Made by a program: the position numbers and the translations under genes. A stretch of 33,979 nucleotides of DNA, taken from Sphaerobacter sp. (GTDB lineage Bacteria; Chloroflexota; Chloroflexia; Thermomicrobiales; Thermomicrobiaceae). The DNA is taken from the NCBI RefSeq assembly GCF_019683595.1, contig NZ_JADGHZ010000023.1, positions 1 to 33,979 of the forward strand. Direction: 5' to 3'. This document shows, piece after piece, positions 6,832 through 8,615 of the stretch. The notes beneath the pieces were generated by a model that did not search any database, was not told the origin of the DNA, and worked only from the letters and a program-made list of their open reading frames with translations. Positions within the stretch are counted from its first letter, which is position 1; every line of letters begins with the position of its first letter.

Positions 6832-6944
6832 CGGCCATCATGCGGCCAGGATTGACGGTCAGGGTTTCGCTGAGTCCGTGATGGCCGGGCCGATGGGTTG
6901 TCCCACGCCCCGCACGCTCCAGCATCCTCTCGGGAACCGAGAGG
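6832..6944. other. Inverted repeats upstream of the met promoter
   Basis: CGGCCATCA (6832-6840) is complementary to TGATGGCCG (6879-6887). CCTCTCGG (6926-6933) and CCGAGAGG (6937-6944) form a perfect hairpin around a 3-nt loop. Both lie between pyrB and the riboswitch promoter. No gene is seen here, and the function is unknown. Confidence 0.4.
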
Positions 6945-6972
6945 CACGATGTGGGAACGCACCCCACGCCTA

Positions 6973-7001
6973 TTGACATCCGCGACGGACGAGCGTAGTA
7001 T
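6973..7001 (+). promoter_or_regulatory. Sigma-70 promoter for the SAM/T-box leader
   Basis: TTGACA (6973-6978) and TAGTAT (6996-7001) are separated by 17 nt, close to the sigma-A consensus. The expected start near 7008 falls just before the SAM-I aptamer, so the leader transcript would be about 560 nt before the start codon at 7569. Confidence 0.8.
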
Positions 7002-7020
7002 CCGACCCACAACTGAATAA

Positions 7021-7168
7021 CGCTCTGCTCATCCAGAGTGGTGGAGGGAACGGCCCTGCGAAGCCCGGCAACCAGCGCGTACCGCGCCAGGTGCCAATGC
7101 CGGCGGACAGCGTCCGCACGATGAGCGAACAGTCTGTGATCCTCCACCGATGCCGTGGAGGTTTTTTG
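7021..7168 (+). promoter_or_regulatory. SAM-I (S-box) riboswitch with expression platform
   Basis: The sequence follows the S-box consensus. The P1 strand GCTCAT (7027-7032) pairs with ATGAGC (7121-7126). The conserved core CAGAGTGGTGGAGGGA runs from 7034, followed by GGCCCTGCGAAGCCCGGCAACC (7052-7073, the P2/kink-turn and pseudoknot region) and GGTGCCAAT (7090-7098). The aptamer binds S-adenosylmethionine, and SAM normally stabilises P1 and allows the downstream terminator (7141-7167) to form. The core segment GGTGGAGG (7040-7047) is perfectly complementary to CCTCCACC (7141-7148), the terminator's 5' arm, which gives a possible antiterminator pairing. Confidence 0.93.
7141..7167 (+). terminator. 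Intrinsic terminator of the SAM-I riboswitch
   Basis: The stem is CCTCCAC (7141-7147) with GTGGAGG (7155-7161), followed immediately by TTTTTT (7162-7167). It lies 15 nt after the aptamer's closing P1 strand, as expected for a transcriptional OFF switch. Confidence 0.9.
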
Positions 7169-7170
7169 TT

Positions 7171-7458
7171 GCCCCACGGCCGAGCGCACAGGCGATGACG
7201 AGGAGAGTACGCGAGGCGCCACGGTCTCAGCGAGCCGCGCCGGTGGAAGGCGGCACACGGGCCCTCGCCGAAGATGACCTCCGAGCCGCGGGCTGAACCG
7301 GGCATGCGCCCGCAGTAGGTTCCGCCGGGTTGACCGCCGTTATCCAGGTCGGGGTGCATGTGCACCCACCGAGGTCCGCGTCGCGAGGCGCGGGCGAAGC
7401 GGGGTGGTACCACGGGTTGGCGAGCCCGTCCCCAGCAATCGGGGACGGGCTCTTCTCG
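7171..7458 (+). promoter_or_regulatory. T-box leader, probable Met specifier (AUG)
   Basis: The hallmarks appear in order. The Stem I 5' side has GACGAGGAGAGTAC (7198-7211). The distal AG-bulge/loop region reads CAGCGAGCCG and CCGGTGGAAGGCGG (7228-7253). The specifier region is GAAGATGACCTCCGAGCC (7270-7287); by the usual NNN-ACCTC layout the specifier is ATG at 7274-7276. The T-box antiterminator GGGGTGGTACCACGGG (7401-7416) follows, then a terminator. The UGGU bulge would pair with an ACCA tRNA end, which suits the A discriminator common in tRNA-Met. Known T-boxes bind uncharged tRNA and then antiterminate. The specifier call is by alignment from memory; GAT, one frame earlier, is the less likely alternative. 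Confidence 0.85.
7422..7458 (+). terminator. T-box terminator
   Basis: GAGCCCGTCCCC (7422-7433) and GGGGACGGGCTC (7441-7452) form a perfect 12-bp stem with a 7-nt loop, followed by TTCTCG. The T-tract is poor, but the stem is strong. Its 5' arm is the strand that would be sequestered by the T-box antiterminator. Confidence 0.8.
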
Positions 7459-7568
7459 TCCCCGGCCAATCGCACCGGATCAGTCACAAGCAGTGGAGTG
7501 GGAAGGCGAGCGTGCCGCCCGCACGGTGCGGGGCGGATCGCCTGACGACCGTATGGAAGGAGCGGATC

Positions 7569-8615
7569 ATGACCGGTCAAGACGGGGCACCACGGGGAGC
7601 ACTGCTTGTCGGGAGCGTCCCGCTGGCCAATGCCACCGAGGTTTTCCAGACTGCCGCGGACATCCTCGGTGACCGCCTGCGCCGCATCCCGGACGGGGAA
7701 ACCGGCGTGCGCAGCAACTGGATCGGGTGGCAGTACGACGTGCTGGCCAGGGTGCCGCAACTCGAGGTGGTCCCACCGAACCCTGACGCCTACTTGCCCG
7801 TGCCGAAGTTCCGACTCCGGGACGGGGCGGACACGTCTGCGATCCGGTTCGACAACCTGGGCTACGCCGACGCGGCGAGGGCGTCGTACGAGACCTTCAC
7901 GCAGCTCAAGGCGGCCGGGACGATCCCGGCGCACGTTCGCTTCCAGGTGTCGCTGCCGACGCCCCTGGCGTCGGTCGCCGCCTACGTGCAGCCCGAGTCG
8001 CAGGCCGCAATCGAGCCGGCCTACGAGGCACGGCTGCTGGCCGAAGTCGACGAGATCCTCGAGGCGATCCCGCGCGATGACCTGGCGATCCAGTGGGATG
8101 TGGCCGTCGAAGTCGGCATCCTGGAGCAGACGTTTCCGTCCGCCTTCGATAACCCGCGCGAGGCGATCGTCGAGCGGCTGGTCCGTATCGGTGACTACAT
8201 CCCGACCGACGTCGAGCTGGGCTACCACCTCTGCTACGGCGATGCCGGTCACCGGCACTTCAAGCAGCCGGAAGACACCCGGCTCCTGACCGACCTCGCC
8301 AATCGCATCGCCGCCGGGGTGCAGCGGCCGATCACCTGGCTTCACCTGCCGGTGCCGGCCGACCGTAGCGACGACGCCTACTTCGCCCCGCTGCGCGACT
8401 TGCAGCTCGACCCCGAGACGGAGCTGTATCTGGGCCTGGTCCACGACACCGACGGTGTCGAGGGAACCCGGCACCGCATCGAGGCGGCCCGGCGCGCGGT
8501 TCCCGCCTTCGGTGTCGCCACGGAGTGCGGCCTGGGGCGCCGCCCGCCCGAGACCATCCCGGCGCTGCTCCGGCTGCATGCCGAGGTGAGCGGGCCGGTG
8601 GTGTCGGTAGTCTAG
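7569..8615 (+). CDS. MetE-like (UROD/MetE fold) zinc methyltransferase, single domain
   Basis: This 348-residue protein resembles the catalytic half of cobalamin-independent methionine synthase, which methylates homocysteine using zinc. The N-terminus has GALLVGSVPLANATEVF and RIPDGETGVRSNWI. A His-x-Cys pair occurs at 220-222 (GYHLCYGDAGH), and a late cysteine at 320 sits in ATECGLGRR. These resemble the MetE zinc ligands (HxC and the cysteine of PDCGLKTR). Canonical MetE is about 750 residues with two barrels; only one is present here. The ATG at 7569 has GGAAGGAG 6 nt upstream; in-frame codons further upstream lie inside the T-box terminator. Control by SAM-I and a Met-type T-box strongly suggests a role in methionine supply, but the methyl donor (folate or methylcobamide) is unknown. 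Some annotation would call it hypothetical. Confidence 0.8.
   Translation: MTGQDGAPRGALLVGSVPLANATEVFQTAADILGDRLRRIPDGETGVRSNWIGWQYDVLARVPQLEVVPPNPDAYLPVPKFRLRDGADTSAIRFDNLGYADAARASYETFTQLKAAGTIPAHVRFQVSLPTPLASVAAYVQPESQAAIEPAYEARLLAEVDEILEAIPRDDLAIQWDVAVEVGILEQTFPSAFDNPREAIVERLVRIGDYIPTDVELGYHLCYGDAGHRHFKQPEDTRLLTDLANRIAAGVQRPITWLHLPVPADRSDDAYFAPLRDLQLDPETELYLGLVHDTDGVEGTRHRIEAARRAVPAFGVATECGLGRRPPETIPALLRLHAEVSGPVVSVV

Follow-up and report, generated by a model that had tools for sequence, protein, structure and literature searches.

Leaders in which a SAM-I riboswitch stands in series with a methionine-specific T-box are already known. A 2022 report (PMC9481103) lists nine SAM-I/T-box(Met) tandems, seven of them with SAM-I first (its text says two once), which sit before metX and metY and are predicted to work as 'NOT A AND B' gates, that is, NOT-SAM AND uncharged tRNA. 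In the literature that we searched, this tandem gate is known but only as a prediction. Tandem riboswitches show marginal enrichment in Thermomicrobiota, the phylum of Sphaerobacter (PMC12452182), and a SAM-I riboswitch of Xanthomonas campestris has been reported to sense uncharged initiator tRNA as well as SAM (PMC7270179).

Here we analyse a leader from a Sphaerobacter sp. genome (G000), found in a contiguous stretch of 33,979 nt that we refer to as the window. It is like the tandems of PMC9481103 in its RNA classes, their order, their separate attenuators and the logic predicted from them. It also recalls the Xanthomonas SAM-I riboswitch (PMC7270179), in that SAM and uncharged tRNA-Met would together control a met gene, but a single riboswitch is reported to take both inputs in Xanthomonas, whereas the window has two separate RNA elements in series. 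The original prediction held that this combination was undescribed, a claim of novelty that fails because PMC9481103 already reports it. What looks new is the target: in two relatives without the usual methionine synthases, a duplicated copy of the leader controls a gene that is uncharacterised and distantly MetE-like. The sister copy in the same genome stands before metX-metY, as do the tandems of PMC9481103, and the window copy stands before the MetE-like gene instead. Our preferred reading, to which we assign a probability of roughly three in four, is a two-step attenuator on one mRNA, duplicated from the metX-metY leader and placed before a MetE-like protein that probably makes methionine.

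Architecture of the tandem leader

The features of the leader and its gene are as follows.

6973–7001, + strand: sigma-70-type promoter, TTGACA-17-TAGTAT, the sole promoter-like site that a scan found in 6880–7620
7026–7127, + strand: SAM-I (S-box) aptamer, matched by RF00162 at 83 bits, above the cut-off
7141–7167, + strand: SAM-I terminator, CCTCCAC...GTGGAGG followed by T6, from the terminator scan; its 5' arm may alternatively pair with the aptamer P2 strand GGTGGAGG
7186–7436, + strand: Met T-box leader, from Stem I to the antiterminator, matched by RF00230 and with compensatory changes among nine related T-boxes
7274–7276, + strand: T-box specifier ATG (Met), from a placement rule and its invariance in relatives
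7400–7433, + strand: antiterminator with the T-box bulge (GGTGGTACC), isolated fold −15.3 kcal/mol
7422–7459, + strand: T-box terminator GAGCCCGTCCCC...GGGGACGGGCTC with the weak U-tract TTCTCGTC, −28.6 kcal/mol
7569–8615, + strand: 348-aa gene with a predicted MetE catalytic-domain fold, candidate methionine synthase, with an AAGGAG Shine-Dalgarno sequence just upstream

The aptamer matches the full RF00162 model at 83.0 bits against a gathering cut-off of 44.4 bits (E 2.3e-18, or 4.4e-20 when the search is confined to 641 bases), and the terminator scan identifies the hairpin at 7141–7161 followed by TTTTTT as its intrinsic terminator, which bears out the proposed complete S-box aptamer with a T-run terminator of its own. 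In both parts the element resembles its class. The antiterminator of textbook SAM-I riboswitches uses the 3' strand of P1; here it appears to involve the 5' strand of P2. Pairing of the P2 strand GGUGGAGG with the terminator 5' arm CCUCCACC (computed duplex −17.8 kcal/mol, against −10.5 kcal/mol for the hairpin) is a plausible SAM-free antiterminator, and the anatomy of the region is consistent with the predicted SAM-driven termination.

The T-box follows the SAM-I terminator in the order that had been proposed, with a spacing between the two elements of ~20 nt rather than the few bases first supposed. It matches the full RF00230 model (positions 1–219) at 57.6 bits (E 6.2e-12), so that the covariance-model check suggested with the original prediction gave significant matches to both families, yet the T-box stays under the RF00230 gathering cut-off of 93, a curated score threshold that represents no structural feature. 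Because its score lies under that cut-off, it is absent from a default-settings Rfam scan. Ten of the 11 T-boxes in this genome score below 93, that of the window lowest, and scans at Rfam's default settings will overlook many T-boxes of this group.

In structure, the element is like the RF00230 class in its Stem I with specifier, its Stem II region, its T-box bulge and its competing terminator; it differs in a score below 93, as do most T-boxes of the genome, and in a weak U-tract. Every part originally claimed is present: the Stem I marks AGTA and AGCGAG...GGTG, the ATG, the T-box sequence CGGGGTGGTACCACGGG at 7400–7416 and a competing terminator hairpin at 7422–7451. This hairpin shares CCCGTCCCC with the UGGN-bulge antiterminator, so the two are mutually exclusive, and it is the more stable fold (−28.6 versus −15.3 kcal/mol). 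Alignment of nine related Met T-boxes revealed compensatory changes in 18 of the 67 predicted pairs, and these support the fold of the window T-box.

Placement of the specifier rests on a rule read off the genome's own T-boxes, which put it nine bases upstream of where the conserved ..GAG of Stem I ends. With genes named from our reading of the translations, the rule returns CTC for leuA, TGG for trpE, CTC for leuS, ATC for ileS, GTC for valS, AAG for lysX, TGG for trpS and ACC for thrS. The specifier thereby fits the downstream gene in eight of the nine T-boxes outside the two tandems; the ninth (L014) has the specifier TTC and no gene identified beside it. For the window T-box, the rule gives ATG, which matches the pathway. 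An alignment of nine tandem T-boxes shows no variation in this codon, whereas the preceding base can be G, A, C or T; the element is therefore a Met T-box. An AUG specifier fits uncharged tRNA-Met of both the initiator and the elongator kind. Reading GAT or GAC (Asp) directly after GAA was rejected, as the ileS, lysX and thrS T-boxes also have an extra base there and that base varies among relatives. A chance resemblance to a T-box is ruled out by the compensatory changes together with the specifier rule.

The U-tract of the second terminator has four T in eight, a weakness repeated in the orthologous leader of the sister species G001 (TCTTCGTC in G001a); the tract of the T-box terminator in the metX copy, TTTTCATT, is better. 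The terminator scan did not report 7422–7459, and the T-box step may leak because of the weak U-tract.

Related tandems and duplication of the leader

We sought the same order in related genomes, as had been proposed, by searching 61 genomes for both families and then looking for the T-box motif 3' of each fetched SAM-I element. This yielded ten SAM-I/T-box tandems, spread over three of the order's families, against ~0.016 pairs expected from chance adjacency (a rough estimate). Both elements were found by cmscan in nine of them, and in the tenth, from G024, the T-box was found by motif only. A strict pattern applied to 158 genomes of the class recovered nine of the ten, from seven genomes, and added none; because it is exact, it will miss divergent tandems. 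The G024 tandem (L127, G024:C588) is itself divergent: it lies before metX, its SAM-I scores 69.5 bits and cmscan at E 0.001 does not recover its T-box.

By our reading of the translations, metX lies downstream in eight of the ten, the exceptions being the window leader and its G001 orthologue, both of which precede the 348-aa gene. The second tandem of G000 (G000:C206:3685-4108, − strand; L010, L012), before metX and then metY, is a paralogue of the window leader. In a tree of the ten leaders, the window leader (W) pairs with G001a and the metX leader (G000b) with its G001 counterpart (G001b), as ((G000b,G001b),(W,G001a)) with support of 0.98–0.99, and the leader was therefore duplicated before the two species split. 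Within G000, the two copies are 97% identical in the SAM domain and 84% in the T-box against 44% in the spacer, which argues that selection continued to act on both sensors once the leader had been duplicated. A BLAST search of plasmids with the leader returned short matches only, over part of the S-box region. In this genus, a single genome has one copy before metX-metY and a paralogous one before the MetE-like gene, which allows a natural two-input gate to be compared on two genes.

Two readings of the leader compete with a two-step attenuator. Only the SAM-I element might regulate, with the T-box left over as a remnant from the duplication and its terminator decayed; the weak TTCTCGTC beside the TTTTCATT of the metX copy points that way, as does the lowest Rfam score among the genome's 11 T-boxes. 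A remnant would sit poorly, however, with a specifier, an antiterminator and both terminator-stem arms that are identical in W and G001a, or with a T-box domain that keeps 84% identity to the metX copy where the spacer has fallen to 44%, and we consider it unlikely. The two elements might instead act on separate transcripts through a promoter between them, as proposed for the adenine/T-box(Tyr) tandems of C. botulinum, an arrangement that PMC9481103 reports for that other tandem. A promoter so placed, which the original prediction had named as incompatible with joint action, was found by a scan for sigma-70-type sites in none of the ten tandem leaders, and all ten carry a near-consensus promoter just 5' of SAM-I (TTGACA or TTGACG, spacing 17–18 nt, 61–64 nt 5' of the SAM core); we regard separate transcripts as highly improbable. 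The predicted anatomy supports SAM-I and the Met T-box as two complete attenuators on one transcript before one gene.

Proposed mechanism

On the reading of a two-step attenuator, polymerase would start at the promoter at 6973–7001 and transcribe the SAM-I aptamer before the T-box. In the SAM-bound state, the P1/P2 fold would free CCUCCACC and the first terminator would form; without SAM, the P2 strand GGUGGAGG would pair with CCUCCACC and polymerase would read through. At the T-box that comes next, the strong GC hairpin at 7422–7451 would favour termination by default or with charged tRNA-Met, and uncharged tRNA-Met, held through the specifier AUG and the UGGU bulge, would stabilise the antiterminator. 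The output would be NOT-SAM AND uncharged tRNA-Met; we infer this low-SAM AND uncharged-tRNA-Met logic, and the switching behind it, from the anatomy of the leader. The window leader arose as a duplicate of the metX-metY leader, and the MetE-like gene that it now precedes probably serves methionine synthesis in a lineage that has neither MetE nor MetH.

The downstream gene and methionine synthesis

The start of the 348-aa gene was set at 7569 in preference to a longer frame from 7404 (403 aa), as AAGGAG precedes the ATG at 7569 and the orthologue begins at the same place with GTG. The protein has no Pfam or NCBIfam match, PF01717 membership included. Among 28 relatives, one matches PF01717 weakly (E 0.008), and a profile of all 28 finds the Listeria protein 1ypx, also weakly (E 0.0019). 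An AlphaFold2 model (pLDDT 92.4) gave its best structural match to 3rpd, the Shewanella MesD protein, with Z 22.8 over 290 residues; MetE structures follow at Z ~21, and UROD-type structures match less well than MetE, at Z ~17. The predicted fold is thus that of the MetE catalytic domain, a MetE-type barrel.

Residues H220, C222, H259 and C320 form invariant columns in the 28 relatives and occur in the same succession as the zinc ligands of MetE, which are His, Cys, Glu(Asp) and Cys, Glu665 among them (PMC7857596); H259 stands where Glu665 would be expected. Set beside the core methionine synthases MesA-MesD and the MetE catalytic domain (PMC7857596), the protein is alike in its predicted single-domain MetE-type barrel, its HxC...C pattern and its lack of a folate-binding N-domain, and differs in having no PF01717 match, His for Glu665 and a sequence identity of ~15% to 3rpd. 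Its relatives occur in Chloroflexota, Proteobacteria, Actinobacteria, Acidobacteria and Binatia. The genes flanking those relatives that lie outside the genus shed no light on function.

In the searched assemblies, G000 and G001 have no PF02574 (MetH-type) domain and no full-length MetE, whereas full-length MetE is present in all the other near-complete members of the family and PF02574 in nearly all. Across the near-complete family genomes, the 348-aa gene occurs only in G000 and G001 and full-length MetE is missing only there (Fisher p 0.011, 14 genomes, uncorrected for relatedness), an association that may reflect one event because the two are sister species. Outside the family the pattern is looser: G025 combines the gene with MetE and PF02574, G028 has the gene and PF02574 with no PF01717 match, and G024 has the gene and single-domain PF01717 frames. 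A short MTHFR-like protein remains in G000 and G001. A search for MesX (PF08908) found no match, and none in the control genomes either, which makes it uninformative. Both genomes also keep a YxjH-like PF01717 protein, a 381-aa MetE relative in G000 (G000:C158:13505-14491, + strand; L183) that is the genome's only PF01717 match and is found in most family members; it is a second candidate methionine synthase.

The predicted MetE fold and the absence of MetE and PF02574 from both genomes are the reasons why the leader suggests a methionine synthase, and we put the odds that the 348-aa gene fills this role in the lineage at about even. The protein could instead be another methyltransferase of the UROD/MetE superfamily, serving methyl or sulfur salvage and co-regulated with methionine genes. 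Its relatives in many bacteria without such leaders, the His in place of Glu665 and the match to UROD-type structures at Z ~17 would all suit that role, and the YxjH-like C158 protein could then be the synthase. Against it, both genomes that pair this leader with this gene are without MetE and MetH, SAM-I lies directly 5' of metE in relatives (G003, G004, G008 and G011), and C158-type genes are also found in relatives that keep MetE; we view a salvage methyltransferase as quite possible, at rather less than an even chance. Tentatively, and at only just under even chances, the metX-metY leader copy was recruited in the Sphaerobacter lineage to a MetE-like enzyme that replaced the lost MetE and HMT-MetF/MetH, which would make the 348-aa proteins a further core methionine synthase family beyond MesA-MesD. 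The leader points to a pathway for a protein family that has no annotation, and gives a possible answer to the question of how methionine is made in two organisms that have neither MetE nor MetH.

The genome contains a third SAM-I element (G000:C178:13033-13143, − strand; L015), which has no T-box match and precedes genes that we read as mtnA-like, adenosylhomocysteinase (ahcY) and metK.
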